Source: a virus
DNA: 27,307 nucleotides
Direction: 5' to 3' (one strand)
IMG/VR virus record: IMGVR_UViG_3300042559_002243
Location: 1 to 27,307 of that record
The position numbers and the translations under genes were made by a program. The notes under the pieces were generated by a model that did no database searches, was not told the origin of the DNA, and was given only the letters and a program-made list of their open reading frames with translations. Numbering within the stretch: position 1 is the stretch's first letter; every line of letters begins with the position of its first letter. Shown one piece after another: positions 3 through 23,086 of this stretch.

Positions 3-1190
3 CTAATACGTAGAAATATTTCAGCTACATTAACTACTTCTGGATTTGGACAAGGTGCAATATTTGATGTGGTAGTAAATACTAATGGTACATATAGTTT
101 AAAAATAGTAAAAAAAGGCGAAGATTACGTAATAGGTAATCAATTGAAAATATCTGCTTCTCAACTTAATATACCAGGAGCAACAATAGCTAATGATATT
201 ACAATTACTGTTCAAATAGTTGGGGATGGATTATTTACTGGAAGAGTAGAAGGACAAAGACTTATACCTGGATTTGGATTAAAACCAGTTTATATTGTAA
301 ATAGAAAATTAAGTAGAGAACACTTACCACAGCATTATCATGGTGGTAGTTATGATACAATTAATAAAAGTGACGTTGGCGTTAATCCAGGAGTTGGTGT
401 TGGAATTTTTGAAAATCCATCTATCACTGTTTTAGAATATTGGGTTTATTGTGGACCTGATAATAATCCAATTGGTGCTGATGGGTGTCAAGTTGGCTCT
501 GTAAGTCATAATAGTACAGCAACTGTATGGGCAAATAGTAAACCAAATGGAGAAGTTAATGTTCCTGGTGGATTTTTTAGTCCATTTACATATGGAAGAT
601 TTGCATTGGCTACTATTCAAGGAACACCAGCGCCTCAACCACATTCACCCGAATTTTGTATAACAGCAAATGCACATGGAGTAGGAAGAGATTGGTTTAT
701 AAGAGGTACTGGAGTTGCAGGAACCCAATTTGAATTAAGAAATTTTAATAACGCAACATCTCTTGATAATGGTCCATTGCAATTATTAAGAGACACAGGA
801 AAATTAAATGTTGGTTCTACTATACCATTTTCTGATAATGGAAATCCAATATCGGCTCCAAATTATGACCCAGGTGGAAGTAATGCAGGAGATAGTGAAA
901 GTCCTATAGGAGCAATTAACACGACAAGACCAGTTTTGATGAATAATGCTGCTTTAAATTATAATCAAACTACTGAAACAAATCCAATTGCAAAGCAAGT
1001 TATAGACCCACATAACCATAATGGAGAATTTACTATTGAATACGATGGTGAGGGAATTGAAATAAGACCATATATTGATGTTAGTGTTAGGGCAAATATT
1101 ACTCCAGAATCTATCAATAATGCTTTTAATATAGAATTTATTACTCCAACAGCTTCGTTATCTGTAGTACATTTAATAAGAGCTTACTAA
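3..1190 (+). CDS. Tail fibre protein with paired HxH motifs, 5' end outside window
   Basis: The reading frame is open from the left edge (codon phase starts at base 3), so the GTG at 69 is only an internal valine and the true start lies upstream. The visible part is rich in beta-strand-forming, Gly/Asn/Thr-rich sequence, as in phage fibre shafts and tips. Two His-x-His motifs are visible, HYH at 333-341 and HNH at 1011-1019. In T4 gp12 and gp37 such motifs bind metal ions along the trimer axis, so a trimeric, metal-bound fibre tip is a reasonable inference. The C-terminal SLSVVHLIRAY resembles the hydrophobic ends of collar-type fibre proteins. The next fibre gene begins one base after the stop. 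Receptor binding is inferred from class; no enzymatic motif is seen. Confidence 0.75.
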   Translation, partial: LIRRNISATLTTSGFGQGAIFDVVVNTNGTYSLKIVKKGEDYVIGNQLKISASQLNIPGATIANDITITVQIVGDGLFTGRVEGQRLIPGFGLKPVYIVNRKLSREHLPQHYHGGSYDTINKSDVGVNPGVGVGIFENPSITVLEYWVYCGPDNNPIGADGCQVGSVSHNSTATVWANSKPNGEVNVPGGFFSPFTYGRFALATIQGTPAPQPHSPEFCITANAHGVGRDWFIRGTGVAGTQFELRNFNNATSLDNGPLQLLRDTGKLNVGSTIPFSDNGNPISAPNYDPGGSNAGDSESPIGAINTTRPVLMNNAALNYNQTTETNPIAKQVIDPHNHNGEFTIEYDGEGIEIRPYIDVSVRANITPESINNAFNIEFITPTASLSVVHLIRAY

Positions 1191-1191
1191 A

Positions 1192-2094
1192 ATGACTGTA
1201 TATTACACAAAAGAAAGATCAAAATTTGGAGGAATTACTGGTAGTATATTACCCTTCACTATCCAATTGCCAGATTTTAATGACCCAGCTGATATAAATT
1301 GGAAAAGATATTTACCTGCTGGTTATTTGCGTTGTAATGGGGATATATTAACCGCAACTACTTATCCAGCACTAGCATCTGTTTTGGGAGTAGGATCTGC
1401 ATCTAAGTTTGCAAAAGATCCAGAATCTATGTTACCAACAGAATTTCAACTTCCAGATCTAGGATCAAAATATATTAGAGCTTCTAATGCAAATGGAGAA
1501 TATTTTAATTTAACCTTAAGTGATGATCCCACAACTTTTAAAATAGGCACAGAATTAAATGTATCTAGTTTGATAGGTGAAGAAGAAATTTTTGGTTATA
1601 GTGGAGACTTTGAAATCATAGCAAAGGAAAATTTACCGTTTATTGGAAATGCTGTATTTAGAACAGAAACTGGATATACATCAAATGATGCTTTAACTAT
1701 TGATAATTTTCAAGCTCATAATCATGAAGCTCCCAGAGTAGGAGTTTTCACTTATCTAGCTCCTTGGTCAGATTCTGGTTTTGTTGGAACTCATTCTGAT
1801 GGTACTATTATAGGCAGAGGAGGAAATAATGCACAAACAGAAGGATCTAATAATTTAGTTGATATTGATTCCCCAACTGGTTCAACTATATCAACTCAGC
1901 ATAATCATAGAATTGTGCTACCAAAATCATCTGATATAAAAAGTAATACAACGTTTTCGTATGGTATTCCAAATAATATAAATGTTTCTGCAGAAGGTTT
2001 GGAAAGTACTGTTTTTGTTACAGCAGAAAGAATAAAAAAATTAGATGATGCTATTTCTCCATATATTTTAGTAGAATACATTATAAAAATATAA
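1192..2094 (+). CDS. Tail-collar domain fibre protein (short tail fibre-like)
   Basis: 300 residues. Residues about 41-98 (LPAGYLRCNGD..., then YPALASVLG, ending in FQLPDLGSKYIRAS) match the phage tail collar domain: an aromatic/Cys-Asn-Gly-Asp turn, a Tyr-Pro-x-Leu helix and an LPD motif. The rest resembles a gp12-type receptor-binding region with two HxH motifs, HNH at residues 176-178 and 237-239, likely metal ligands in a trimer. The C-terminal ISPYILVEYIIKI is the usual hydrophobic ending of such proteins (compare LLTPYVWVRWLIKAF in the 1874-residue protein). ATG 1192 lies one base after the preceding stop, with no Shine-Dalgarno sequence. The role is probably a structural adhesin on the baseplate or fibre. 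The exact equivalent of a named T4 gene is not clear. Confidence 0.85.
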   Translation: MTVYYTKERSKFGGITGSILPFTIQLPDFNDPADINWKRYLPAGYLRCNGDILTATTYPALASVLGVGSASKFAKDPESMLPTEFQLPDLGSKYIRASNANGEYFNLTLSDDPTTFKIGTELNVSSLIGEEEIFGYSGDFEIIAKENLPFIGNAVFRTETGYTSNDALTIDNFQAHNHEAPRVGVFTYLAPWSDSGFVGTHSDGTIIGRGGNNAQTEGSNNLVDIDSPTGSTISTQHNHRIVLPKSSDIKSNTTFSYGIPNNINVSAEGLESTVFVTAERIKKLDDAISPYILVEYIIKI

Positions 2095-2096
2095 AA

Positions 2097-3551
2097 ATGG
2101 CAATAATATCTTCAAACGAATGGAATACTTTATCATTATCAGCGTATAACGAATATTACACTCCAGTAGTTAGTACTGATGGATACGCAGATCTATTATA
2201 TAATTTTGGGGTTGAAGCATCCACTGGGATATTAGAATATGATATAATATTTGAAAATAAAGGACAACAAATATTTAATACAGCAGCAGATGATCAAGCT
2301 TGGCTTTTTATAGATGGAAGATTCCAAGGTATTTTTGGTAATAAAAGTCAAAGTTTTTTATTAATAACCAAAGATTATTACGAAGAAAATAGTGTACATA
2401 GAATACAAATTATTGCAAACAATACAGATCCTAAAACTGCCATATATGTAGCTGCGGACTGGTACGATTACAAATATGATCCAGTAAATATAAAAAGTTT
2501 TTTTGCATCTCCTAATCCTTTATATGGAATAAATGGAACTCCCACAAGTACCCTTACTTTAAATTGGGAAGTTTCTAATTACAAAAAAATAGAAATAAAT
2601 CAAGGCATTGGTGATGTTACATCTTCTCAAACAGGATTTACAACAATAGATACACAACTAAAATCAATTGTTCCTTCGAGATCTCCAGCCACAAAAACAT
2701 ATACATTATATGCATATGGATTTTTAGACACAGATGTAGTAGAACAAAATTTAATAGTACAGGTGTTTAATGATAATACACCTAATGATTTTAGCATCCC
2801 TGCAAGTGGATTTACTAGCAGTTTTATTGATAAAGAACCAAATCAAGTTATAATTCATAATTTGGGTACTATTAGAGGAATTGATATGAATACTAGAGTT
2901 GTTTGTAGTGATGGACTGCAAGCAACTACTAGTATAAATCCAGAAAGTAGTGCTTCAAACTGGTCTAGTAATTTTTTAATGGAGCCAAATAAAAATTTAA
3001 GTATAAGATTTAAAACTCCACCATTGAATCCAGATCCAGAAGGATTGCCAAATGTTGTGGAATATTTTTTGGAAATAGGTACAGTTCGTAAATATTTTAC
3101 TGTTTCTACCAGATCTCCATATACAGATGAATCTTTTGATTTTCAAGACAATAGTGAAGTTTACCCATATCCTAAACTTCATACAACTCCATTACCAATA
3201 CCAGAACCTTACATAGTTAGCAATTTACCCTCAAGTGAAAGTTTGATAATTGATGATACTGATTTATCTAATGTAGATACTGGACTAACTAGTGGTGGAA
3301 TAGAAATAAAAACAACATTAAATGATGCAGTTGAAGTGAGATTTAAGAGAAATTTTGATGGTTGGAGTGAATGGACACATCCAAATCAAATGTATGATAG
3401 TTTTACATCTCAAAACCCAAGAACATTAGAACTTATGGATATGGATTATTTAATTGATCGATCAAATCAAACAGTTACAAATAATAAACCGAAGGAAATT
3501 AACACTAGAAATTCTGGTAAATTATTTGCAAAAAATATTGATGTATTTTAA
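2097..3551 (+). CDS. Modular virion adhesin, Ig-like
   Basis: 484 residues, no catalytic motif. Residues about 1-130 form an all-beta domain with a DDQAWLFIDGRFQG strand-turn and an HRIQIIANNTD strand; by feel this is like carbohydrate-binding beta sandwiches such as PA14, but that is not established. Residues about 135-340 are an Ig-like module (A) that recurs at the C terminus of the protein at 3578-5338: shared KTY-L-A-G, V(F/Y)ND, NLG-(I/L)-G(I/V)DMN, NLS(I/V)R and (P/N)xDxxGL patterns. The C-terminal ~120 residues are a second module (B), shared with the protein at 5328-6200: FDFxDN, PYP, II(D/V)DD, then a Trp-rich end. ATG 2097 follows the previous stop by 2 bases without a ribosome-binding site. 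Likely a fibre-associated structural protein. Confidence 0.7.
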   Translation: MAIISSNEWNTLSLSAYNEYYTPVVSTDGYADLLYNFGVEASTGILEYDIIFENKGQQIFNTAADDQAWLFIDGRFQGIFGNKSQSFLLITKDYYEENSVHRIQIIANNTDPKTAIYVAADWYDYKYDPVNIKSFFASPNPLYGINGTPTSTLTLNWEVSNYKKIEINQGIGDVTSSQTGFTTIDTQLKSIVPSRSPATKTYTLYAYGFLDTDVVEQNLIVQVFNDNTPNDFSIPASGFTSSFIDKEPNQVIIHNLGTIRGIDMNTRVVCSDGLQATTSINPESSASNWSSNFLMEPNKNLSIRFKTPPLNPDPEGLPNVVEYFLEIGTVRKYFTVSTRSPYTDESFDFQDNSEVYPYPKLHTTPLPIPEPYIVSNLPSSESLIIDDTDLSNVDTGLTSGGIEIKTTLNDAVEVRFKRNFDGWSEWTHPNQMYDSFTSQNPRTLELMDMDYLIDRSNQTVTNNKPKEINTRNSGKLFAKNIDVF

Positions 3552-3557
3552 TAAATA
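3550..3557 (+). promoter_or_regulatory. T4-type late promoter box AATAAATA
   Basis: AATAAATA fits the NATAAATA form of the T4-like late promoter -10 box, which is read by a phage sigma factor and needs no -35. It sits in the short gap before the gene at 3578, 20 bases ahead of its ATG, similar to the boxes before 6236 and 6428. Chance matches are common in AT-rich DNA, so position carries most of the weight. Confidence 0.5.
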
Positions 3558-3577
3558 CAAATAGTAATATAATTTTT

Positions 3578-5338
3578 ATGGGAAGCGGAATTGTAAAGGA
3601 CGAATTATTTACAATTGAAAATGGGAAATCTTCTGGAGAGTGGAAAATTCCTTTCGCTGTGATCTCAGTTTACGCCGAAGCTTGTGGTGGCGGGGGTGGT
3701 GGAGCTGGTTGCAATAAAGATTTTGATTTTTATCCAGACAATGCTGGTGCTGGTGGCGGTGGAGCTGGATGGGGAGCTAAAAAATTTTCAGTTAGTTATG
3801 GGGGAAAATTTTTATATCAAGTTGGTGTTGGAGGTGCTGGAAATAAAAACGGCAATTTTGACCAAGGAGAGTTTGGAAATGGTGCAGCTGGAACAGCTTC
3901 AATCATACGTTACATAGCAAAAGGAGGAAATGAATCTCCAGGATATGGAGTTAAATTAGAAGCTGGCGGTGGTGGTGCTGGAGGAAAAGGATTTGGTGGT
4001 TTTGGTGGTGTAGTACAAGGAGCAGATACATCAAAACCTGGAACCAAAGGACAAGATGCTAGAGAAGGAATATCAGTATCATTAGGAGGCAATCCAAAAA
4101 ATGCTAAAGGTGGTGGTGGCGGTGGAGCAGCTGGTCTTGGATTTGGGGCAAGAACTGATGGTAAGGTAAATGTATCATATGACTATAATGTATGTGTCAG
4201 TATAACATATCCACAGCCAAAAACTGGTGATATGCCATATTGTAATGAATTTAAATCTGGAACTGGAAGTGAAGATGTAGTCATGAAGATTTGTGGTGGT
4301 GGTGGTGGAGATGGAGTTAATATTGGAGGAGAATTAAAAGAATCTGGTGAAGCAGCTACAAAAAGACCTGGAGGATATTATAATATTGATGGAAAGCCTG
4401 GAAAATTATATGGAGGTGGAGGTGGAGGTGCTTCATCTGGACATAATAAAACAACTTTTGCTTATCCAGATGATACTGAAGGTTGGAAAGTATCTGAATA
4501 TCCACTAAATTCAACAGATTATACTTATACTTATGCATTAGAATATTTTTCTCCAAACCCATTAGAAGAAGTTGAGTTAACAAATTCATTAAAAAATGGA
4601 GATGGCGCTGATGGTGCAAATGGATTTATCTATGTTAAATATGAATATGAAATACCAAAAATAGATTTATTACAAGTAACAGAGCAAAAAAGTACAGGGG
4701 GATTTCCACGAGATGATGTAATAATATCTTGGCGTACAACACATGCAAATGAAATAACTATAATCAATACATCTCAAAATAATCATGAAATTTTAAAATT
4801 AGTACATGATTTAGATACAGGAGAAAATACTATCACGACAAGTAGTACTAGAATTCCTTATCCAAATTCTGAGCAATTAGCTAATTTGACATACTCAAAT
4901 GGAGCCTATCAATTTAGTACTTTACAAAGATCTGTTGCTGGTGTTTGTTCACCTTCTGTAAATACTTATAGATTAATTGCAAAAGGTCCTGGAGGAGAAG
5001 CAACGAGAGACATAAATGCATCAGTATATAATGATGATAGACCATCATCTCCAAATAGTATATTAGATACTCCAAAAATGGAGCCAAATTCAACAAGAAT
5101 TTATAATCTTGGCTCTTTAAATGGGGTTGATATGAATTGCTATGTAGAAGCAGTTAATTGTCAATTTGATATAAATGCAGATGGAAGTTGGAGATCTAGT
5201 GCTTTAGTTGAAAATGGAAAAAATTTGAGGGTAAGAGTAACTGCTTTACCTTTCAATTCAGATGAAAATGGATTAATTAATATTAAGTCAGCATCATTAA
5301 AACTAGGAAGAGGATTTACAGAACCAAATGGCAACTAA
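3578..5338 (+). CDS. Glycine-rich adhesin-like structural protein
   Basis: 586 residues. After GEWKIPFAVISVYAEA comes a long glycine-rich domain (residues about 35-350) with repeated runs such as CGGGGGGAGC, GAGGGGAGWG, GGGGAGGKGFGGFGG and GGGGGGAAGLG. The layout of a (V/I)P strand, a hydrophobic strand, then Gly blocks is typical of phage glycine-rich fibre domains. Polyglycine-helix packing is known in the gp38 adhesin of Salmonella phage S16, so host-recognition loops between Gly blocks are possible here. Residues about 375-580 are module A, shared with the protein at 2097-3551. Several Cys (ACGG, AGC, YNVC, MPYC, MKICGG) could pair or bind metal. A NATAAATA box precedes the gene. Its last 11 bases overlap the next gene in another frame. 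Confidence 0.7.
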   Translation: MGSGIVKDELFTIENGKSSGEWKIPFAVISVYAEACGGGGGGAGCNKDFDFYPDNAGAGGGGAGWGAKKFSVSYGGKFLYQVGVGGAGNKNGNFDQGEFGNGAAGTASIIRYIAKGGNESPGYGVKLEAGGGGAGGKGFGGFGGVVQGADTSKPGTKGQDAREGISVSLGGNPKNAKGGGGGGAAGLGFGARTDGKVNVSYDYNVCVSITYPQPKTGDMPYCNEFKSGTGSEDVVMKICGGGGGDGVNIGGELKESGEAATKRPGGYYNIDGKPGKLYGGGGGGASSGHNKTTFAYPDDTEGWKVSEYPLNSTDYTYTYALEYFSPNPLEEVELTNSLKNGDGADGANGFIYVKYEYEIPKIDLLQVTEQKSTGGFPRDDVIISWRTTHANEITIINTSQNNHEILKLVHDLDTGENTITTSSTRIPYPNSEQLANLTYSNGAYQFSTLQRSVAGVCSPSVNTYRLIAKGPGGEATRDINASVYNDDRPSSPNSILDTPKMEPNSTRIYNLGSLNGVDMNCYVEAVNCQFDINADGSWRSSALVENGKNLRVRVTALPFNSDENGLINIKSASLKLGRGFTEPNGN

Positions 5339-6200
5339 AAAATATGATATCTCTTTACAAATCAACAATGCACAAAAAGTAAAGGTATATAGCCCTCCCT
5401 GTGTTAATTTATCATTGCAAATAATCAATTCTAGTACAGAATTATTAAAATTTTCTGATTATTCTGATGTTGCACTGCAAATAATTAATGGTAATTTACA
5501 AGAAAGTTATTGGGCTGGTGGAAGCAATGTAAATGCTTCTGTTCAATATACTGGTGCTGGGGGAAATTTAGGAACAATTTATAAAGCATCTTCTAATATT
5601 ATTATGACTATTGATGGAGTTGCAACAGTTCAATTTGATACTTCTATTGCAAACAATTCATCAGATCAATTGAGAATATATTTAAATGATGACGGATTTA
5701 TTAGTTACAATTTTTTAAATTTTGAAATTGGAAGAAATTATGAATTTACTTATACTAATGGATCTAGTACTGTAGGTATAAATTTTGTCAATCGTAATTA
5801 TACTTGTCCAATAGGAACTATACCAAATCCACCAGAAAATCCAGAAAATACTACTTTGCCGCCAGAACTTAATTGCGATGGGGATTTATGGAGATCTGCT
5901 GTTGAATTAAATTTTGATATTATAACAAGGGAACCAATAATATTAGAAAAATTTGATTTTGGGGATAATATTAATAAAGTACCATATCCTGGAAAAAATG
6001 ATCCATTACAACTATACGATTATACAGGAACCGAAACAATTAATCAATGGTTAGTTTCTCCTCCAGATGGTAAACCAATAATTGTTGATGATGTTGAATT
6101 ATCAGATCCATATGGAGTTCAAATAAAATCAAATGATAGTGAATTGCAAGTAAAATCAAACAGAACAAATAATCAATGGGTAAATCCAAATTTGTTATAA
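5328..6200 (+). CDS. Small virion adhesin-like protein with module B
   Basis: 290 residues, beginning inside the last codons of the glycine-rich gene (11-base overlap, ATG 5328). The N terminus holds three short repeats of one beta-strand pattern: ISLQINNA, LSLQIINS and VALQIING. A middle region rich in Asn/Gly/Ser follows. The C-terminal ~95 residues are module B, also present at the end of the 484-residue protein at 2097-3551: EKFDFGDN, VPYP, PIIVDDVELS, VQIKS, ELQVKSNR, W-NPN. Together with the preceding gene it contains the parts found in one chain in the 484-residue protein, so the two products may act together. Function is inferred only from setting. Confidence 0.65.
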   Translation: MATKKYDISLQINNAQKVKVYSPPCVNLSLQIINSSTELLKFSDYSDVALQIINGNLQESYWAGGSNVNASVQYTGAGGNLGTIYKASSNIIMTIDGVATVQFDTSIANNSSDQLRIYLNDDGFISYNFLNFEIGRNYEFTYTNGSSTVGINFVNRNYTCPIGTIPNPPENPENTTLPPELNCDGDLWRSAVELNFDIITREPIILEKFDFGDNINKVPYPGKNDPLQLYDYTGTETINQWLVSPPDGKPIIVDDVELSDPYGVQIKSNDSELQVKSNRTNNQWVNPNLL

Positions 6201-6235: not shown

Positions 6236-6403
6236 ATGAAATATGAATTAAATCCAAATGAAATGTTTTACTCGGAAATTATTGAAGTTGATGGATTAGA
6301 TGAAAATGAAAAAAAACCAATCTATTCAAATTTACCAATTGAAATTCGAATAAATTCTGGTGAATGGATAAAGATAAATCCATCAAATCAAGATAAATAC
6401 TAA
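6236..6403 (+). CDS. 55-residue protein related to module B
   Basis: A short open frame in the only sizeable gap inside the fibre cluster (6201-6427). It encodes 55 residues from MKYELNPNEMFYSE to PSNQDKY. The segment EIIEVDGL...LPIEIRINSGEWIKINPSNQ follows the strand-turn-strand and Trp ending of module B (compare IIDDTDL, IEIKT, GWSEWTHPNQ in the protein at 2097-3551). It could be a free-standing small structural protein or a remnant left by recombination of a larger adhesin. Late-promoter-like boxes occur both before it (6199) and across its end (6392). No Shine-Dalgarno sequence. Small size keeps confidence moderate. Confidence 0.55.
   Translation: MKYELNPNEMFYSEIIEVDGLDENEKKPIYSNLPIEIRINSGEWIKINPSNQDKY
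6392..6399 (+). promoter_or_regulatory. T4-type late promoter box GATAAATA
   Basis: GATAAATA is a full NATAAATA match. It lies in the last codons of the 55-residue gene and 28 bases before the ATG of the 1874-residue fibre gene, so it is well placed to drive late expression of that gene. Confidence 0.5.
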
Positions 6404-6427: not shown

Positions 6428-9400
6428 ATGGCGCAAAAAGTTCTCGTTGGCAATGGTGATTTAGTTGAAATTAGATATCCAACACCTTCTACTTGGAATA
6501 CTAAAGTAACTGTTCAAGTTCAAATAGGAACTGGGGTTGATCCAACTGACGTTACTTTTGGCACCAGAATACCAGATGCTACTATTGACCCAATATCATT
6601 TGATAACAATCAAGGTAGAATTTCAACATCGTCTACTACTTATCAAACAATATTTGAAAAAAATACTTTTTATTATTCGAAAGAAATTACAATTGAAGGA
6701 ATTGAAATTGTAGTTCCAGCAGTGATACAAACTTCTATTTCTGGACCAACACCAAATAAAACACTTACTAGTAACGCTTCACAGGCTGCGTTTAAAGTAA
6801 ATAATTCTGGAGATTGGGTAACTAGTGCGAATATAAAAAATGGAGACAAGATAATTTTTAGAATAAAAACTGAAGATTGGTATTGCAAAACAACCACAAT
6901 AAATTTTATAGTAGGAGATCAAACTTGGGGTACAAATATTGGAAGACCTTCTACTGTAGTATCGCATAGTTGGAGTATAACTACAAGAGCACAAAAACAG
7001 ACTGTAGATCCATATACATTACCAGACGAAGTTGATGCAAGATATGCATTTTTCAATAGTTGGAAAACAAGATCAGTCCAAATTAAAAATATTGATGAGG
7101 ATACTTTACTTACTGTTAGTGCAACTGGAGATGGTCAAGTATCAAAGGACAATATAAATTGGTATACATTAGGAACAACTAATCATGTAAATGCTCCAAA
7201 TGACGGTAGTATTGTTCACAGTGGTCTTTTAAAAAATGTTGTATTAAATGATACTCTTTATTTTAGAATTTTTACAAAAGATTATGCTAAAAAATCTACG
7301 TCTAAATTTGATGCATATGTAATTGAACAAGAGTATGCAACTGTAAATAATATTTACAGAGAAAATAATGTAGCTGGTACATATAATACAGTAGTTCAAA
7401 CTAAAGGAACTCAAAAAAATGATTGGCAAGTATGGACCGAAGTTGATAGGTATCCCGATCCAATATCTTTGTCACCAATTTATACGTATTCAGAAACAGG
7501 ACAAAAAGTAATTGTTTCTAATAGACATATATTCAATAATGCAGAAGTATCTACTTATTATTATGCAGAGTTTATAGTATCTGGATTAGGAGTTGAATAT
7601 GCTTCTTTAGATCCAAATACTATAAATGATCCAGAACCAAAACCAATGTATTGGGATGTGGGACCTGCAGTAGATTTAGGAGGAGAAAAAAATCCACCAT
7701 TTATCACAGAATTTGTAAATGGTAGAGATGTTGAAATACAATGTAGGGTAGATCAAGGATCTGCCAGAATGAAAAGAGTTAGAATTATTGATGGAGTAGA
7801 GGAAATATCACCAACATGGCGTGACAGATTTTATGTTAAAAATGGTGATAAAGTAATTGTTAGACTTTCTGCTAATTCAACGTATAATAGTCAATCAATT
7901 AGCAAAATTGAACTAGATGGTCCTCCATTGGGAGGAGATGTAGCTAATGGATATGGAAATCCTACTGAAGGACCATCTGTTGCTAATAGATCTTTTGAAA
8001 ATGCTACTGACACACTAACAATAAAAACAAGGGTTAAGCGAGATACGCCATCTCCATTTAAAGCAAGAAATGTTTATAATTCATCTACTTTAACAGAAGG
8101 TTTTGCTAGAATTGCCATTAAAGATTTTGATAGTCCAGCATTAGCAGATATTGTAGTGCAATCATTTGGAGCTAATGGAAAATTTTCTTATGGGGATGAA
8201 GAATCTTCTGATTTATTATCATTACCAGTGGGAACATCTAATGTTGATTTGGTAGCAACATCTCCCCAAGAAGATGGGGGAATTGCTTCAATAAATTATA
8301 AAATTGGTAGTTTTTTTGATAATTTTAGAATTTTTACTAAAAGAAAAAATTATGAATACTTTTCAGTAAGTGGTGATAATGATATTTACGTGGATGTAAA
8401 TATCCCAAATTACGCAAATACAATATATTTTTATATTGAGGGAGCTGGAGGTGGAGATGGTGGATCTGATGAAGGAACAAGCATTGGGGGTAGAGGTGGT
8501 GTTGGTAATTTTTTGGCTGGAAAAATAGATGTAACTGAAGATTTTTTAGAAGATTTTGGAGTACTCAGATTATATGCTGGGAAACCTGGGCAAGACGGAC
8601 TAAGTAAAGCAATTGGTAGTGATGGTGGAAATGGTGGATGGGGATATGCTACAGGAGGAAATGGTGGTAAATCTGGAGGAGCAGATGCTTCTGGATCTGG
8701 TGGCGGTGGTGGAGGTGGTTCTGCAATTGCATTAACTAATGGAACTCTGCTTGCTTTTGCTGGAGGCGGTGGAGGTGGAGGTGGAGGTGGTAATGATACT
8801 GCACCTCCAGATATAACATATGACCAAAATGGAAAAGCTATAGTTTTACAAAATGGAAATTATTGTCCTTATGATAATAATTTTGGCGAAGAAAGAGGAA
8901 ATTTTGGATCTTTAAATACTAGTACTTTACCAAATTTAAGTGGTTCTGATGGCCAATCTCAGTTAATTACATCAAAAGGTGGTGGTGGTGGTGGAGCTGG
9001 TGGTGGTTATGGAATTGCTGGATTAGTAAGAACAGAAAGATTAGATGAATTTGGCGAAGTTATACAAACTACTGATGTAGATGCTACTGGAGGAACTGGG
9101 GGAGGAGCTTATCATAGATTAAGTTATAGTTTAAATAATATTTCTTACTTAACGACAGAATTAATTGATAACACATCATTTTCTAATTATGGAGCACCAC
9201 CAAGAGAATCAGGAAGAGTAATTGTATTTTGGTCAGAACAGAATAGAACTCCTGCAGACTTTAGTATTTCAACAGTTTCAGATTTAAGCATTAATACTGA
9301 AATTGAATCCAATAAAGTTCAAATAACTGGATTTACAGGAAGAATTTCCGTTTCTGTTTCTGGAATGCAATCTAAAATTAGATCATGTGATATAAATGGA

Positions 9401-12052
9401 AACAATTGCGGAGAATATTCTTCTAATGAAGTACTGATAAAACCAGGACAGTATATACAAATATTAGCTACAACTGGATCTGAATATTTTAAAACTTATG
9501 CAGTTTCTGTAACTGCAGGTACATTATCAAGAGTATGGTATATTTCAACTGGAGAACCACCCGATAGATATCCAGATGGTTTCAATTATATACCACCAAA
9601 ATTAAATCAAGATCCAAGTACACCAGAAAATATAAATTATGTAGAAAGTGATGCTATACAAATTAATAATATTAATGTTCCCGTAGATATTACTGCTACT
9701 AACAACAATACAAAAATTTCTATATGTACGGATGAAAATACTTGCGGTTCATTCCAAAGTGGTGTTAGATCAATTGAAGGTGGTCAATATTTTAAATTAC
9801 AATTACCTGCCTCCACATCTTATAATACTAGTGTAACAACTGGTGTAACAGTTGGAACATCTTCTCTGGTAAGTTGGGAAGTTAAAACTTATTCTGAGCC
9901 AAATAGACGACCAAATGATTTAATTTTTAGAAATAAATCTAATACTCCATTATTAACAAGAGTAGATAGTAATAGACAAATAATTTCTGGAATTAGTATA
10001 GCAATTAATTTTACTGTTGATGGTGGAGCTTTAATAAATTTAAATGAAGAGGATACTGAATTATCATCATTACAAGTTGTAGAAAATGATGTAATTAGAT
10101 TATATTATACAACATCAAGTACTGCAGGTGATCAAAAAATATTTGACATTACTGCTGGAACTTATGAGACAACATGGACAGTTACCAATACAGGATTATT
10201 TGGAACAGTACCAAATGTTTTTGTTTTTGCTGATAAAAGAGGAAATCCAAATGAATATGTTGAAAGTAATGAAATAACAGTAAGTGGACTAGCAGAAAAT
10301 ATTTCAGTTCCTTTATATGCAACTAATAGAGCAGAAATTAAATTATATGGTACTCAAATTAATAATTCTATTTTAGATGAATCATCTGCTGTTTGGGTGG
10401 AATATACATTAGATAATCCAGCAAATGTAAAGAATGGTGCAAAGATAAAGGTAAGACTATTAGCAAGTGAATTTCCAGGATTTTCAGTAACTACTAATGT
10501 TAACATTGGAGGAAGAGATGCTGATTATAAAGTTACCACAAATGCTGCAATTCAGGATCCAATATTAGGACAGTATTACACTAGCCCAGCCGTAATTAGA
10601 TACATTGATATTGACGGTGAAGAAACACAAATTAGGTATCCATCAAAATTTGAAGGTCTTCCAATTGGTTGTTTAATGCCAGTATTTAAAGATCAAACTG
10701 AAGAAGATGGCTGGGGCAATTTGAATGGAAAAATTAATTCAAGATTCCATGGTTGGATATGGTGCAATGGTGATTATATTTCAAAATATGAGTATCCTCT
10801 ATTGTTTGAAACTATTGGATATGTTTATGGAGCACAAGGAGTTGGAGAGGCTCCTGAATTTTTCAGATTACCTGATTTTAGAAATAAAAAAGTTTTAGGC
10901 ACTGGTACTATAGATGGTAATCAACCAGCATCACCAATTGTAAACCCAACATTTGGCCCTGCAAAAAGCACAACTCAAGACAAAGGTGGATTTATTCCTG
11001 GATGTACTGGTGGAATGTGGTTTATTGATACAGTTGGGGATCCTGGAATAAGTGGTTTAGCATCAGAAAACAATAGAGAATTTGAGCAAATTTATACAAA
11101 TGAACTTGGCGATTTGCCAAATGAAAGTCCATTCTTCTCTATTGCAAATATTGTAACTAGAGGTTATTCAGAAATAACTGAATTAGTTGAATTTGAAGTT
11201 TCTGGTTATGTAAAAGGAGTTATTGGTATAGATAAAACAAAAATATTTGAAGTTCCTGCACATAGTCACCAAGTAGTTATGGGGCAACCAGACCCAATAA
11301 GAAATAAAGGTTATATTTCTTGGGGAGGAAAAGCTGGTCCAGCAAAAGTTGGTAGTTTAGGGCCACCAAATTCTTCTGCTCAGCCATACGAACAACCCTT
11401 ATTAACTAATTTATGGGGTTATTCTACAAATGATTACAATATTAACAAAGATAATGCAATTGACGTAACAAGTAATTCTACTTTTAAAGGTTGGTTAAAA
11501 AGTGAGGTAACTTGGACTGGTTTTGGTGGTTTTGGTGGACAATATCAAGGAACTATTGCGGAGGAAGGATGGGGAAGTATAACAGTAAAACAAAATATGT
11601 TAGATGATGCTGATGATTCTTTGGATATTAATAGGTATATTGATACATGGGGTGGAAATTTTTCTTCATATTCAGATAATAAAAATGGAGAAAAAATTAA
11701 ATTTATAGGTGCAGTAGATATACCAGTAACTCAAATCTCAATTTCTCCATATTCTTCTGCAGAAAAACCAGCACATAGTCATTATTTAAGTTTAATCGAT
11801 CCTGGAAGTTCTACGGCTATTTACAGTTATGGAAAAAATGATGGACCTGGAGTTGCAATTAATCCACAATTTGATGATTTAACTGTTGAAGTTCAATTTG
11901 ATTATGATGAAATTGGAATGGAAGTTTTACCAGGAGAATTTGTTTTAAATTCAGGTAAACAAATTATACCAACTCCTGGATTTTCTGCTCAAACACAGGT
12001 TCCATTATTAACACCATATGTTTGGGTTCGTTGGTTAATTAAAGCTTTCTAA
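6428..12052 (+). CDS. Giant tail fibre protein: Ig-like repeats, glycine-rich domain, collar domain
   Basis: 1874 residues, the largest gene here. Residues about 1-660 are beta-rich, with Ig-like units marked by xNGDKIxxR (near 137 and 471). Residues about 670-890 are glycine-rich, starting TIYFYIEGAGGGDGG and including runs of seven to ten Gly, as in the protein at 3578-5338. Residues about 940-1390 are four roughly 100-residue Ig-like repeats: a PxxFxF start, V(E/D)SN strand, GQY(I/F)xLxxxxS and W-V-T end. Residues about 1411-1495 form a tail collar domain (IGCLMPVF, GWIWCNGDYISKYEYPLLF, FFRLPDF). Two HSH motifs follow at 1612-1614 and 1783-1785, the latter in EKPAHSHYLSL. The C terminus ends LLTPYVWVRWLIKAF. 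Probably a trimeric long fibre or baseplate adhesin with a metal-binding tip. Start ATG 6428 has no Shine-Dalgarno sequence. Confidence 0.88.
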   Translation: MAQKVLVGNGDLVEIRYPTPSTWNTKVTVQVQIGTGVDPTDVTFGTRIPDATIDPISFDNNQGRISTSSTTYQTIFEKNTFYYSKEITIEGIEIVVPAVIQTSISGPTPNKTLTSNASQAAFKVNNSGDWVTSANIKNGDKIIFRIKTEDWYCKTTTINFIVGDQTWGTNIGRPSTVVSHSWSITTRAQKQTVDPYTLPDEVDARYAFFNSWKTRSVQIKNIDEDTLLTVSATGDGQVSKDNINWYTLGTTNHVNAPNDGSIVHSGLLKNVVLNDTLYFRIFTKDYAKKSTSKFDAYVIEQEYATVNNIYRENNVAGTYNTVVQTKGTQKNDWQVWTEVDRYPDPISLSPIYTYSETGQKVIVSNRHIFNNAEVSTYYYAEFIVSGLGVEYASLDPNTINDPEPKPMYWDVGPAVDLGGEKNPPFITEFVNGRDVEIQCRVDQGSARMKRVRIIDGVEEISPTWRDRFYVKNGDKVIVRLSANSTYNSQSISKIELDGPPLGGDVANGYGNPTEGPSVANRSFENATDTLTIKTRVKRDTPSPFKARNVYNSSTLTEGFARIAIKDFDSPALADIVVQSFGANGKFSYGDEESSDLLSLPVGTSNVDLVATSPQEDGGIASINYKIGSFFDNFRIFTKRKNYEYFSVSGDNDIYVDVNIPNYANTIYFYIEGAGGGDGGSDEGTSIGGRGGVGNFLAGKIDVTEDFLEDFGVLRLYAGKPGQDGLSKAIGSDGGNGGWGYATGGNGGKSGGADASGSGGGGGGGSAIALTNGTLLAFAGGGGGGGGGGNDTAPPDITYDQNGKAIVLQNGNYCPYDNNFGEERGNFGSLNTSTLPNLSGSDGQSQLITSKGGGGGGAGGGYGIAGLVRTERLDEFGEVIQTTDVDATGGTGGGAYHRLSYSLNNISYLTTELIDNTSFSNYGAPPRESGRVIVFWSEQNRTPADFSISTVSDLSINTEIESNKVQITGFTGRISVSVSGMQSKIRSCDINGNNCGEYSSNEVLIKPGQYIQILATTGSEYFKTYAVSVTAGTLSRVWYISTGEPPDRYPDGFNYIPPKLNQDPSTPENINYVESDAIQINNINVPVDITATNNNTKISICTDENTCGSFQSGVRSIEGGQYFKLQLPASTSYNTSVTTGVTVGTSSLVSWEVKTYSEPNRRPNDLIFRNKSNTPLLTRVDSNRQIISGISIAINFTVDGGALINLNEEDTELSSLQVVENDVIRLYYTTSSTAGDQKIFDITAGTYETTWTVTNTGLFGTVPNVFVFADKRGNPNEYVESNEITVSGLAENISVPLYATNRAEIKLYGTQINNSILDESSAVWVEYTLDNPANVKNGAKIKVRLLASEFPGFSVTTNVNIGGRDADYKVTTNAAIQDPILGQYYTSPAVIRYIDIDGEETQIRYPSKFEGLPIGCLMPVFKDQTEEDGWGNLNGKINSRFHGWIWCNGDYISKYEYPLLFETIGYVYGAQGVGEAPEFFRLPDFRNKKVLGTGTIDGNQPASPIVNPTFGPAKSTTQDKGGFIPGCTGGMWFIDTVGDPGISGLASENNREFEQIYTNELGDLPNESPFFSIANIVTRGYSEITELVEFEVSGYVKGVIGIDKTKIFEVPAHSHQVVMGQPDPIRNKGYISWGGKAGPAKVGSLGPPNSSAQPYEQPLLTNLWGYSTNDYNINKDNAIDVTSNSTFKGWLKSEVTWTGFGGFGGQYQGTIAEEGWGSITVKQNMLDDADDSLDINRYIDTWGGNFSSYSDNKNGEKIKFIGAVDIPVTQISISPYSSAEKPAHSHYLSLIDPGSSTAIYSYGKNDGPGVAINPQFDDLTVEVQFDYDEIGMEVLPGEFVLNSGKQIIPTPGFSAQTQVPLLTPYVWVRWLIKAF

Positions 12053-12072: not shown

Positions 12073-13017
12073 ATGGCAACAATGTCTTTTAATCCAGATG
12101 ATTTTATCATTGAGGAATTTCTTCCTCCCGAAGAAAAAAAACCAATTTTGGAATATACTGCCGAAAATAATATTATCTTTGTGAGATTTAAAACAGAAGA
12201 TGGATCATACAAGTACAATTCTTTAGTATTGAATAATAATTTAAATAAAATACTATTAGAAAATATCCCAAATGAATGGTCTAATGATAAAGATAAATTA
12301 ATTTCTTTTGGGATATATGATGATGGCACATATTTAATGACAAAGAAAAAATTAAAATATGATTTCAATACAAATTCTACTAAATGGATTAGCTATGATT
12401 GTAATAATTTAACATTAAATCAGGCAAAAGAATTTTTTGAAATTTTAAAGTCATTATTATTTGTTGAGCAATCAATCAAAACCTATGAGAAAGACAAAGA
12501 AATTTTTGATATTGTAACTTCAACTCAAGCATATTTGGATGAAGAATATTTAAATAAATGTATTGAAAGAGATAATCTATTAAGATCAAGCGATTTTAGA
12601 ATTTTAGAAGATTATCCAGAAACTTTTGAAGGAGAAAAATTATTATGGATTGAATGGAGATCTAAATTAAGAGATATCGTCAAAAAAATGGAAGATTTTA
12701 ATGAAATAGTTGATTATGTAATTTACTTAGAAAATTTCAAATGGCCGATAGATCCATTGGTATATTATGAAAAATTTACAAATCAAGATACACAATATCT
12801 TTCATCAGAAGATCAATATGTAAAAGATAGTTCATTATCATCAATAGATTCTTTAAATACTATTAAACAAAATGTATTATCTTCAGCACAAAATTTAAAG
12901 AGTTACAATCAAGGTGGAATTCCTATTCCAACTCAAGTTAGTAATGTTTTAGAGAAATATCGTTTGCTTGATGAAATTTTAAATATGGACACCATTAATT
13001 TTACAATAGGAGAATGA
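12073..13017 (+). CDS. Tail fibre assembly chaperone-like protein
   Basis: 314 residues. The centre carries the signature seen in phage tail-assembly chaperone proteins found next to fibre genes: RDNLLRSSDF (from residue 166), a Trp about 25 residues later in LLWIEWRSKLRDIVKKMEDF, and WPIDP at 224-228. The family pattern from memory is RDxLLxxSDW, W-YRQALRD, WPxxP. The N-terminal ~130 residues are of mixed sequence and begin with an acidic PPEEKKP stretch; they may bind a partner. The C terminus is Ser/Asn/Gln-rich. The position directly after the giant fibre gene supports a role in folding or attaching that fibre. ATG 12073 gives MATMSFNPDD; no clear ribosome-binding site. A structural role instead of a chaperone is possible. 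Confidence 0.6.
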   Translation: MATMSFNPDDFIIEEFLPPEEKKPILEYTAENNIIFVRFKTEDGSYKYNSLVLNNNLNKILLENIPNEWSNDKDKLISFGIYDDGTYLMTKKKLKYDFNTNSTKWISYDCNNLTLNQAKEFFEILKSLLFVEQSIKTYEKDKEIFDIVTSTQAYLDEEYLNKCIERDNLLRSSDFRILEDYPETFEGEKLLWIEWRSKLRDIVKKMEDFNEIVDYVIYLENFKWPIDPLVYYEKFTNQDTQYLSSEDQYVKDSSLSSIDSLNTIKQNVLSSAQNLKSYNQGGIPIPTQVSNVLEKYRLLDEILNMDTINFTIGE

Positions 13018-15972: not shown

Positions 15973-16251
15973 ATGAAACAATTATTTTTATTTGTACAAC
16001 AAGGCTGTAGAGCATGTACATTTACTGAAGTACAATTAAAAAAAATCAACAATTGGGAAAAAATAGTTGATATTGTAGATTTGCTTTCTGAAAATGGTGA
16101 GCCAAATAAATTGGCAAAAAAATATGATATTAATTTTACTCCATCTTTAATTATTCTTGATTCAACTGGAAATTTAATTGATAAAGTTGTCGGAGCTAAA
16201 AAAATGGGATTTGATTTTTGGAAATCTTTACTTAATAGATATTTGGGGTAA
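15973..16251 (+). CDS. Thioredoxin/glutaredoxin-like protein, CRAC active site
   Basis: 92 residues, a complete minimal thioredoxin fold: LFLFVQQGCRACTF places a CxxC (Cys12, Cys15) after the first strand, and NFTPSLIIL gives the cis-Pro (Pro57) before the next strand, followed by GNLIDKVVGAKK. It could reduce disulfides in phage or host proteins such as ribonucleotide reductase, as T4 NrdC does; the partner here is unknown. The paralogue follows 8 bases downstream but lacks the first Cys. The gene is AT-rich. ATG 15973 lies one base after the previous stop. Confidence 0.82.
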   Translation: MKQLFLFVQQGCRACTFTEVQLKKINNWEKIVDIVDLLSENGEPNKLAKKYDINFTPSLIILDSTGNLIDKVVGAKKMGFDFWKSLLNRYLG

Positions 16252-16259
16252 TTTTAATT

Positions 16260-16532
16260 ATGAAAATACATTTATTTGTGCAAGAAGGTTATAGACCTTG
16301 CATGTATGTCGAGACTCAATTAAAGAAAGTGGAAGGTTGGGAAAATGTAGTTACCATTACCAATGCTAAAGAAAATGGAGAATGGTCAGCATTTGCTAAG
16401 AAATGTGGTGTTGAGGCAACGCCAACGCTCGTGGCGTTGACAGATGGCAACATTGTTGCTAAGATGGCAGGGTCTCAGGACATGACTTCTGATTTCTGGA
16501 GGGCTACGGTAGAAAAGCATGGGCATGTTTGA
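16260..16532 (+). CDS. Thioredoxin-like paralogue with degraded active site (YRPC)
   Basis: 90 residues, aligning end to end with the protein at 15973: LFVQEGYRPCMY versus LFVQQGCRACTF, then ETQLKKVEGWENVV, AKKCGVEATPTLVAL and SDFWR. Tyr11 replaces the nucleophilic Cys; Cys14 remains, and the cis-Pro is kept (Pro55). An extra Cys49 is present. A normal two-cysteine reductase is therefore unlikely; it may bind partners, work through one thiol, or pair with the upstream copy. The 3' half uses more G+C-rich codons than its sister. The next gene starts inside its last codons. Confidence 0.75.
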   Translation: MKIHLFVQEGYRPCMYVETQLKKVEGWENVVTITNAKENGEWSAFAKKCGVEATPTLVALTDGNIVAKMAGSQDMTSDFWRATVEKHGHV

Positions 16533-17192: not shown

Positions 17193-17562
17193 ATCAACAG
17201 CGCCAAAAAAGAATAATAGAACCACCTTGAATTGGTGGGAGTATTGGGTTGGTCATTGTTGGATGACAGGATGGCAAAGCATTGGCATTAACTTTAGAGT
17301 GTGGGCAGATCTAATTGGATCTTCCTATGAGAATTATGCTTTACTTAAAGATGTTGATCCAGAACAAGAATGTATTGAATGGTTCTGGGTTGGACTGAAT
17401 GACGATGATGTTTATCCTAAAGAATTTCTTGAAGGTTTAATGGAAATGATGGATCGTATTGATCGAGGAGAAGAAAAACTCATTCCACTTGATGAAGATT
17501 TCTTTGATAGGTTGAAAGAACTTACTGATGGTGTTGAATTAAATAAGGAGGATTTTAAATGA
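17173..17562 (+). CDS. Hypothetical acidic protein, 129 residues
   Basis: Start set at ATG 17173 (MYSTPVRSTAPKKN) rather than 17104, because GGAGGAGGA at 17162-17170 directly precedes it and the longer form would overlap the upstream gene by nearly 90 bases. Basic N terminus, then WWEYWVGHCWMTGWQSIGINFRVWADLIG and an acidic helical half (DPEQECIEWFW, EFLEGLMEMMDRIDRGEEK, DRLKELTDGVEL). No known domain recognised. The last codons carry AAGGAGG at 17546-17552 for the gene at 17559. Confidence 0.6.
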   Translation: MYSTPVRSTAPKKNNRTTLNWWEYWVGHCWMTGWQSIGINFRVWADLIGSSYENYALLKDVDPEQECIEWFWVGLNDDDVYPKEFLEGLMEMMDRIDRGEEKLIPLDEDFFDRLKELTDGVELNKEDFK

Positions 17563-17765
17563 GTGATAGAGCACAAAAACTGATGGATTCTGTATGGCAT
17601 GAAAGAAATACTTGGGCAAATACAGAACAAAAACTTGTTGCAGCAATCATAAGAAAAAGCATTGAATATTGTAAAACATTGACTGCATCTAAGCTTGATA
17701 ATTTATCAGTAATTGATAAAAATGATATTCTTCAATTATCAAAAGAAATTGAAAATATTAAATAA
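17559..17765 (+). CDS. Distant member of the (E/V)EAL small-protein family
   Basis: 68 residues, ATGA overlap with the preceding gene. The opening SDRAQKLMDSVWHER corresponds to TERAQKVKEAFWEN of the paralogue at 22475. A middle AAIIRKSIEYC matches the A(A/L)xxIR segment, and the ending NDILQLSKEIENIK takes the place of the ELEAL helix. The predicted form is a short all-helical hairpin. It lies about 4.5 kb from the main array and is much more AT-rich, so the family is old or spread by recombination. No function known. Confidence 0.6.
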   Translation: MSDRAQKLMDSVWHERNTWANTEQKLVAAIIRKSIEYCKTLTASKLDNLSVIDKNDILQLSKEIENIK

Positions 17766-21909: not shown

Positions 21910-22073
21910 CCCTTACAAAAGATAGGATTGTATATTATAGTGCTTGGGTAGTTTGGATTTCTTGTTGTCTATCTCCTACATTTTTTGTTGCATATCTTTT
22001 GCATCAACAGTATGATTTTGATATAAAAATGAATGAATTAAGAACAGAACTTATAGGAGTGAAGAATGACTGA
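21906..22073 (+). CDS. Small one-pass membrane protein
   Basis: 55 residues: MTLTKDRIVYY, a membrane helix at about 11-32 (SAWVVWISCCLSPTFFVAYLL, with two adjacent Cys), then HQQYDFDIKMNELRTELIGVKND as a charged helix. ATGA overlap with the upstream gene, 8-base overlap with the first (E/V)EAL paralogue. AGGAG at 22055-22059 in its 3' end serves that paralogue. Function unknown. Confidence 0.55.
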   Translation: MTLTKDRIVYYSAWVVWISCCLSPTFFVAYLLHQQYDFDIKMNELRTELIGVKND

Positions 22074-22272
22074 CACCGCATACAAAGTTTGGGAAGCATT
22101 CAAAGCAGAATTGATTGTAGAACCCACAGAGGATATGAAACAAGCATTAGCATCTTCTATTCGTGTGATTTCTTCTCTCATTTATAGAGATGGAGTGCTT
22201 GCAAATGAACCTTGGCTTACTAATACTGCTCAAGAGCTAAATGAAATTGCTGGTGATGTGGAGGCACTATGA
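22066..22272 (+). CDS. (E/V)EAL array paralogue 1
   Basis: 68 residues: MTDTAYKVWEAFKAEL, DMKQALASSIRVISSLIYRDG, TNTAQELNEIAGDVEAL. It has the shared plan of an N-terminal (A/K)xKV-x-(E/D)AF/Y helix, a central ALxxxIR helix, a variable loop and a final helix ending in EAL. GGAGG at 22260-22264, encoded by Val-Glu-Ala, is four bases before the next ATG. Predicted to be a small helical bundle or oligomer-forming protein. No function known to me. Confidence 0.65.
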   Translation: MTDTAYKVWEAFKAELIVEPTEDMKQALASSIRVISSLIYRDGVLANEPWLTNTAQELNEIAGDVEAL

Positions 22273-22478
22273 AAGAACAAGCAAAGAAAATAGATGATGC
22301 CTACTGGAGAGCAATAACTAATGTTCCCGATATTTACACAAAGGGTCGGGTGCGTTTTGCTGCTGGTCTCCGTGAGATTGTGAATGAGTATCAATACCAT
22401 CACTTTGGAGAAGGTGAGGATATGGTAGTTGATGCTCGTGTGCTTTATGAACTTGCTGATGAATTGGAGGCACTATGA
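22269..22478 (+). CDS. (E/V)EAL array paralogue 2
   Basis: 69 residues: MKEQAKKIDDAYWRAITN, VRFAAGLREIVNEYQYHHFGEGEDM, VDARVLYELADELEAL. This is the clearest match to paralogue 3: xxAxKxxxAxW at the start, A-LREI/V in the middle, VLYELADELEAL against VLELCEELEAL at the end. ATGA coupling on both sides; GGAGG 22466-22470 feeds the next gene. Confidence 0.7.
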   Translation: MKEQAKKIDDAYWRAITNVPDIYTKGRVRFAAGLREIVNEYQYHHFGEGEDMVVDARVLYELADELEAL

Positions 22479-22657
22479 CTGAACGAGCACAAAAAGTAAA
22501 AGAAGCATTTTGGGAAAACACAGAATATCCAGATGACCTTGATGAATGGAACCTTGCTAATGCTCTCCGTGAAGTCATAAACCAACTCCAACAAAGCCCT
22601 GGTGTGATTATGTGTGCTGATGTGTTAGAATTGTGTGAGGAATTGGAGGCATTATGA
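22475..22657 (+). CDS. (E/V)EAL array paralogue 3
   Basis: 60 residues, the shortest copy: MTERAQKVKEAFWENTEYPD, LANALREVINQLQQSPGV, CADVLELCEELEAL. Its start also resembles the separate copy at 17559 (SDRAQKLMDSVWHER). The centre loop lacks the FAYD/HHFGE insert of other copies. GGAGG at 22645-22649 precedes the next start by four bases. Confidence 0.7.
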   Translation: MTERAQKVKEAFWENTEYPDDLDEWNLANALREVINQLQQSPGVIMCADVLELCEELEAL

Positions 22658-22887
22658 TGACTAACGAACAAATCCTTGAACTTGCTAATGAGTACCTTGA
22701 AGAATGGGAAGCAGATGAGGATGGTAAAACCTGGATGGAGTTCTCTGGAACTGCTGAAAAGATTATTCAGTTTGCTCAAGCAATTCGTAGAGATGCTCTT
22801 TATGAGGCAATCCATTTACTTTCAAATGTCCCTAATCCAGAAGCAAACCGAACAGCAATCAATCGTATTACTATGGAGTTAGATTGA
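22654..22887 (+). CDS. MT(D/N)EQILEL family protein, copy 2
   Basis: 77 residues; the opening ATGATG gives a double Met, and ATG 22654 keeps the usual four-base spacing from GGAGG. MMTNEQILELANEYLEEW, FSGTAEKIIQFAQAI, then a helical tail EAIHLLSNVPNPEANRTAINRI absent from copy 1 (21318). It interrupts the (E/V)EAL array between copies 3 and 4. A 21-base block is identical in the two copies (21325-21345 and 22664-22684), so the duplication is fairly recent or under exchange. Confidence 0.65.
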   Translation: MMTNEQILELANEYLEEWEADEDGKTWMEFSGTAEKIIQFAQAIRRDALYEAIHLLSNVPNPEANRTAINRITMELD

Positions 22888-22888
22888 A

Positions 22889-23086
22889 ATGACTAACCAT
22901 AAACAAGAACGAGCAAAAAAGATTATGAGAGCATACGAAGCAGAAGATACTTACAACTTTCCAAAAGACGGAGTTGCTGCTGCTATTCGTGCTATGGCAG
23001 ATAGTTTTGCGTATGATGATAATGGACTTGTTTGGGTTACTGCTGATGACTTTTATGAGATTGCGAATGAACTGGAGGCACTATGA
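22889..23086 (+). CDS. (E/V)EAL array paralogue 4
   Basis: 65 residues: MTNHKQERAKKIMRAYEAED, GVAAAIRAMADSFAYDDNGL, TADDFYEIANELEAL. It holds all family elements: ERAKKI-x-xAY start, AAxIR centre, FYEIANELEAL end. ATG 22889 follows the previous stop after one base, without the usual overlap. GGAGG 23074-23078 serves the following membrane-protein gene. Confidence 0.7.
   Translation: MTNHKQERAKKIMRAYEAEDTYNFPKDGVAAAIRAMADSFAYDDNGLVWVTADDFYEIANELEAL

Follow-up and report, generated by a model that had tools for sequence, protein, structure and literature searches.

A two-gene counterpart of a single-chain head-A-B protein among the tail-fibre genes of a relative of T4-like myoviruses

Genes and modules of the tail-fibre slot

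The window, the whole stretch of 27,307 bases analysed, covers the tail-fibre region of a relative of the T4-like myoviruses, as judged by PHROG matches. On the plus strand, short tail fibre and tail collar proteins at 69..2094 (phrog_4591, 2.3e-24; phrog_4714, 7.2e-61) lie upstream of a slot of three genes, and a giant short-tail-fibre protein of 1874 aa at 6428..12052 (phrog_4924, 1.2e-80) and a tail assembly chaperone at 12073..13017 (phrog_4697, 5.7e-49) lie downstream. The slot, which begins after the collar/short tail fibre genes and extends to the following short tail fibre gene, has the same gene order in Synechococcus phage Sf-FR1 and also corresponds to slots in S-PM2 and Syn1. The tail assembly chaperone gene comes soon after it, with a 2OG oxygenase gene between in S-PM2 and Syn1. 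The three open reading frames, 2097-3551 (product 1), 3578-5338 (product 2), and 5328-6200 (product 3), were found where the original prediction had placed them, the last two overlapping by 11 nt. Each product matched one record alone in the phage collection, Sf-FR1 (E limit 0.01).

Product 1 (484 aa) carries a head and the modules A and B in a single chain, namely, a PA14-like head (about 2097-2486), the two beta-sandwich domains of A (about 2487-2771 and 2832-3110), and B (about 3111-3386). It was expected to end with A and then B; both are present in that order, but an extra C-tail of about 53 residues follows B (about 3387-3548). A profile of the A-B part (AB profile; 278 positions, built from single-chain relatives with the window excluded) matched positions 1-278 over residues 132-430. 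The AlphaFold2 model had a mean pLDDT of 78.5, with 83-98 for blocks inside both A domains (residues 131-224 and about 246-338), and B was poorly modelled. The head scored 13.2 bits against Pfam PF07691 (PA14; cut-off, 24), and the best viral fold match of the protein was a PA14-domain protein of cyanophage S-RIM44 at E 4e-15, with TM-scores of just 0.20-0.21. In the fold comparison, the first A domain aligned to a solved domain, 6za2 (Z 7.9, rmsd 2.1 over 83 residues), as well as to Ig-like and fibronectin-type tandems, and the second aligned solely inside two-domain matches; the Ig-like label is firmer for the first domain than for the second. No named fold family is claimed, because the TM-scores of the PDB fold matches were low and these matches were Ig-like tandems of a generic kind and GH2 enzymes. 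The AB profile found nothing at E 1 or better among the sequences of solved structures.

Product 2 (586 residues) consists of a Gly-rich head (residues 1-360, 3578..4657; 24% Gly in the N-terminal part) and module A (4658..5335; profile positions 10-184, E 4.5e-37) with the last strand of the second domain absent. The match to the profile extends as far as residue 578 (nt 5311), beyond which there are eight more residues. The coding score of the A region was +0.34 in frame versus -1.00 and -0.91 in the others. Against Pfam PF21722 (Gly_rich_2), the head scored 18.1 bits (cut-off, 24.3). A similarity of this head to that of L005:7668-9254 (1.5e-4) was discounted, the composition bias exceeding the score.

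The genes of products 2 and 3 overlap at 5328..5338, where the start codon of product 3 lies within the end of product 2, in the +1 frame. Upstream of this start there is an AG-rich stretch, AGGAAGAGGA, at 5305-5314, and the start itself, ATGGCAACT, resembles the structural-gene starts at 2097, 6428, and 12073. Product 3 (290 residues) begins with a new N-terminal region (5328..5900), which is probably beta-rich, contains a repeated SLQIIN-like motif (by eye), and ends in a Pro/Asn-rich linker at about 5808-5900. The region scored +0.37 for coding in its own frame versus -0.76 and -0.87 in the others. It had no relative at E 1 or better, itself excepted, among 1256 ORFs from the collected loci, and neither the phage search nor the single-protein search of viral contigs gave one. 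A decayed A module was rejected as its identity, the score against the profile being 0.0 bits. Next comes a strand, VELNFDIITREP (residues 192-203, 5901..5936), at whose first residue the profile match begins from position 185, and then module B with the stop codon (5937..6200); together they match positions 185-278 at E 3.4e-22. The model of product 3 was of low confidence (pLDDT 61).

The relationship of the modules was examined by pairwise and profile comparisons. By BLASTP, product 1 matched product 2 (residues 180-328 with 442-577, 1e-14) and product 3 (308-432 with 168-290, 5e-8), and products 2 and 3 were not alike (best E 0.76). The AB profile scored 119.8 bits on the A region of product 2 and 71.0 bits on the B region of product 3, and the best scores among 1000 unmasked shuffles per region were 7.4 and 5.2, respectively. 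The original prediction was to fall if the similarity vanished on masking of Asn, Ser, and Pro, and the outcome depended on the method. With these residues replaced by X in both sequences, the pairwise BLASTP significance was lost (E 0.031 for A and 0.76 for B), but the profile kept 53.4 bits for A and 30.9 bits for B. Because these masked scores stand far above the shuffle maxima, a low-complexity artefact was rejected, and on sequence grounds A and B are taken as homologous across the three products rather than as alike in composition.

Position of the break in module A

The AB profile covered positions 1-278 in product 1, 10-184 in product 2, and 185-278 in product 3, the exact abutment at 184/185 reflecting in part where local alignments stop. 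The same A-B order is thus present once in a single chain and once over two overlapping genes, as had been proposed. Product 1 by itself has head, A, and B on one chain; products 2 and 3 do not have them singly, and jointly they cover positions 10 to 278.

Positions 184/185 correspond to residues 329/330 of product 1, which lie between strands 320-327 and 330-338 of the AlphaFold2 model, in a part modelled with a mean pLDDT of 96 (321-330) and 93 (331-340). The strand carried by product 3 is equivalent to strand 330-338 in the AlphaFold2 secondary structure. Because the cut maps to the turn before this strand, product 2 is, by the model, without the last strand of the second A beta-sandwich, and product 3 carries that strand and then B. 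The earlier description of the second and third genes as ending in A and B, respectively, is correct as to the modules but needs amending at the boundary, the last strand of A being located on product 3, before B.

Single-chain relatives and related slots

The census of relatives comprised 38 records, namely, the window, Sf-FR1, and 36 viral contigs obtained in alignment-driven scans. A and B occurred in one chain in 91 genes (85 distinct proteins), a count that includes Sf-FR1_24 with its head on another ORF, 5' ends truncated by contigs, and near-identical contigs, and excludes five rows interrupted by the end of a contig as well as 14 rows for big fibres. A clean split between A and B was found in the window alone. 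The search may be biased towards whole A-B genes, since a match to the sequence that came first in the alignment was required of every candidate. Single-chain copies numbered one in eight records (including the window), two in 12, three in 14, four in three, and five in one, several of the records being fragments. Six other rows were formed by big fibres in L007 and L008, the window pair, a member with an internal deletion in L024, and one with a deletion and a frameshift in L023. Two of these full-length ORFs, apart from the window pair, are damaged: an internal portion of A is missing from L024:2922-4121, and L023:10001-10807 stops within A, its remainder being in another frame after the deletion. 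The members at L023:10001-11250 and L024:2922-4121 have PA14 heads and different internal A deletions and come from related contigs, the former being frameshifted as well.

Scanning viral contigs with product 1, 2, or 3 as a single query gave no relatives, but alignment queries did find them. A B-first alignment scan returned the already-known contigs and no B-only gene elsewhere, as far as the short-peptide patterns used in all these scans, which may miss divergent genes, could reach. A 40-base junction pattern was absent from the other viral contigs searched, a set from which records very near that of the window were possibly excluded. In the scan of genome contigs, the A region had four matches, all of them distant.

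The heads of the relatives matched SUEL lectin (D-galactoside/L-rhamnose-binding; 7.6e-10), PA14 (6e-6), and Gly_rich_2 (9.9e-10). In a Pfam scan of ten proteins, four had a head match at 1e-3 or better, that of L019:13372 being under its cut-off; the sole match of L061 lay outside the head and under the cut-off, and five proteins had none. The relative L016:11395-13338 passed the Gly_rich_2 cut-off with 39.2 bits. A member of 1099 residues at L063:7601-10900 has a front of 822 residues matching phrog_29022 and PA14, with A-B at its end.

In Sf-FR1 (PV340855), genes SfFR1_22 to _25 have the slot and the order of the window. SfFR1_22 resembles product 1 over 99% of its length with 35% identity, and SfFR1_25 is a Gly-rich head-A-B protein in a single chain. 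Genes 22, 24, and 25 all have A and B in one chain (3/3), unlike the window pair. Genes 23/24 (L003:14572-16480) look like a Gly-rich head-A-B gene that a +1 shift has interrupted close to where A begins; upstream of the start of Sf-FR1_24 its frame reads ANPNPVFSNAG, similar by eye to FFASPNPLYGING in product 1. This break, whether a true split or an error of sequencing, parts the head from A, whereas that of the window parts A from B.

Proteins in the same slot of other cyanophages, such as S-PM2 p223-p225 (T4-GC 737-739) and Syn1_035-037 (phrog_2155 and phrog_29022), share with the window a variable front, Gly-rich in some, Ig-like stretches, and the placement between collar and short tail fibre genes. 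A VEIKSN-type motif near the C-terminus was found in 14 of 15 slot proteins from S-PM2, Syn1, S-CAM1, ACG-2014e, and Sf-CH11; the sole one without it, SCAM1_022, may be a collar-type protein. The AB profile matched 12 of 14 of these proteins weakly (5e-13 to 1.9e-4), SCAM1_025 and ACG-2014e gp031 giving 0.16 and 5.3. In all 14, the ending and the front are on the same chain, unlike in products 2 and 3. PHROG files phrog_29022 and phrog_2155 under 'head and packaging', and the slot and the domains point to the tail.

The protein gp032 of ACG-2014e (L068:5332-10701, 1789 aa) apparently joins at least two members in one chain, with a C-terminal-type module near residue 1200 (seen by eye and missed by the motif search), then a further head, and at 1763 a second module. 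Slot neighbours may therefore have fused too, as in this protein.

Origin of the split and possible adhesin function

The earlier suggestion of domain shuffling had left fission and fusion side by side. The comparisons support fission of a Gly-rich head-A-B gene, because A and B as a rule share one chain (91 genes across the 38 records, compared with a single clean split) and because the halves meet at 184/185; by the same counts fusion is disfavoured. About 0.6 kb of new coding sequence, with a stop and a new start, would now occupy the turn that leads into the last strand of the second A domain. The first half would then comprise the Gly-rich head and an A module whose second domain misses its last strand, and the second half the new domain, the Pro-rich linker, the missing strand, and B. 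The split is known from one metagenomic contig.

Identity of the A half was 0.27-0.33 to Gly-rich members and 0.23-0.28 to PA14 members (14 and 8 members), and that of the B half was 0.38-0.45 and 0.28-0.39, respectively, in the same numbers of members, with ranges that touch. In L016 and L022, just a PA14 member and one Gly-rich member precede the giant fibre, and the product 2/3 pair can therefore occupy the place of a single gene. Because the best identities are to Gly-rich members and such two-member arrays exist, fission of one Gly-rich member is the simplest origin. The tree of the split member was undecisive, with long branches and AU p values of 0.31-0.46 for each of three groups. As a joint explanation we consider it rather probable that the slot is a tandem array of tail adhesins, that one Gly-rich member underwent fission, and that its products most likely re-form the constant part in trans.

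Three slot members are present in relatives such as L005, L006, and L019, and products 2 and 3 stand at the second and third places, as they would if two adjacent complete A-B genes had been truncated, the first losing B and the second losing A and gaining a new head. Separate trees of the A and B halves, in which neither half was firmly placed, are compatible with such a history. It is nevertheless unlikely, since an abutment at 184/185 would be rare for two independent losses (within about five profile positions by chance, of the order of 4% as a rough estimate rather than a computed value) and since the last strand of A remains on the B half.

A single gene that had gained a domain at the last turn of A and was then broken by an indel, whether from sequencing, assembly, or real mutation, would agree with the frame of product 3 being open upstream of its ATG to 5307, with both frames overlapping from there to the product 2 stop, and other members are indeed broken by frameshift or deletion (Sf-FR1_23/24, L023, and L024). 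The stretch 5307-5335, however, holds no run longer than three (six A follow just after, at 5337-5342), and no insert of at least eight residues at profile position 184 was seen in 65 aligned rows, a few of which do not reach 184. A mere indel is disfavoured, and in our estimate quite improbable, because the new region of product 3 is strongly coding in its own frame and because its start, ATGGCAACT, with the AG-rich stretch upstream, is like those of its neighbours. Programmed +1 frameshifting, yielding a short product 2 and a long product 2-3 fusion, would fit the +1 frames of product 3 relative to product 2 and of Sf-FR1_24 relative to Sf-FR1_23, but it is very hard to credit, as inspection by eye recognised no +1 slippery site at the junction, the +1 cases of the window and of Sf-FR1 fall at different module positions, and product 3 has a credible start of its own.

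Because the genes occupy a tail slot and relatives have sugar-binding heads, our best guess is that the slot proteins are tail adhesins with a variable head on a constant C-terminus, the latter being the likely anchor. Phage fibres usually have an N-terminal anchor and a C-terminal binding tip, and the N-terminal head of this family is the opposite of that layout. The census shows the design to be reusable, a changeable head being set on a rear end that stays constant; between one and five single-chain members were found per record. The window shows it broken into two chains with the constant part kept. Cyanophage host range is expected to depend on tail proteins, and the slot proteins are mostly labelled 'virion structural' or 'hypothetical' in the records examined. 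Titles and abstracts of the papers that literature searches returned gave no description of the A-B family or of such a split.

After fission of the Gly-rich member, one edge of the second A domain in product 2 would be left open. If the product 3 strand paired with it in trans, the constant part would be restored and a second head gained. The original idea that the two products interact through A and B gains a concrete form here, because product 3 carries the strand that product 2 is missing, and we infer that they may reassemble by strand pairing. The profile scores retained in both halves fit selection for joint use. With less than even confidence, we propose a split Ig-like domain to which the second protein brings the last strand, an anchoring C-terminal module, and a new head, the pair forming an obligate two-chain, two-headed adhesin where there had been a single head before fission. 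If reassembly holds, the pair would be a natural split protein and would allow a direct test of which end anchors and which binds.

In chaperone-usher pili, donor-strand complementation lets another chain supply the last strand that an Ig-like domain lacks. Product 2 may offer a parallel: its match ends at 184, which would leave a putative Ig-like domain short of its last strand for another chain to complete, the Ig-like fold of this second domain coming from two-domain alignments only. In the window, unlike in the pili, the product 3 strand is internal, with B after it. Several receptor-binding proteins of one phage are used together in the branched tail-spike complexes of Ackermannviridae, according to the available text of PMC11414711; the proteins themselves differ from those of the window. 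Virion proteomes of cyanophages have been reported (PMC3037559). For S-PM2d, early mutations were described in short tail fibre and adhesin-component genes (PMC9910659); they could not be mapped onto p223-p225 and are not counted as evidence here.

Further features were noted elsewhere in the window. The giant fibre at 6428..12052 has domains with a weak resemblance to the second domain of A, the AB profile giving an i-Evalue of 1.3e-4 over residues 118-189 in a search of four window proteins. Between product 3 and this fibre, a small frame at 6236-6403 (55 codons, by eye) resembles SfFR1_27, as a visual comparison of IRINSGEWIKINPS with VKINNGEWILIDPS suggests. Adjacent thioredoxin-like ORFs lie at 15973-16532, with CRAC in the first and a degenerate PCMY site in the second (by eye). 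The small, nearly end-to-end ORFs at 22066-23086 (starting at 22066, 22269, 22475, and 22889) share an ending in EAL and by eye appear to form a small paralogous family, to which the ORF at 17559-17765 also looks to belong.
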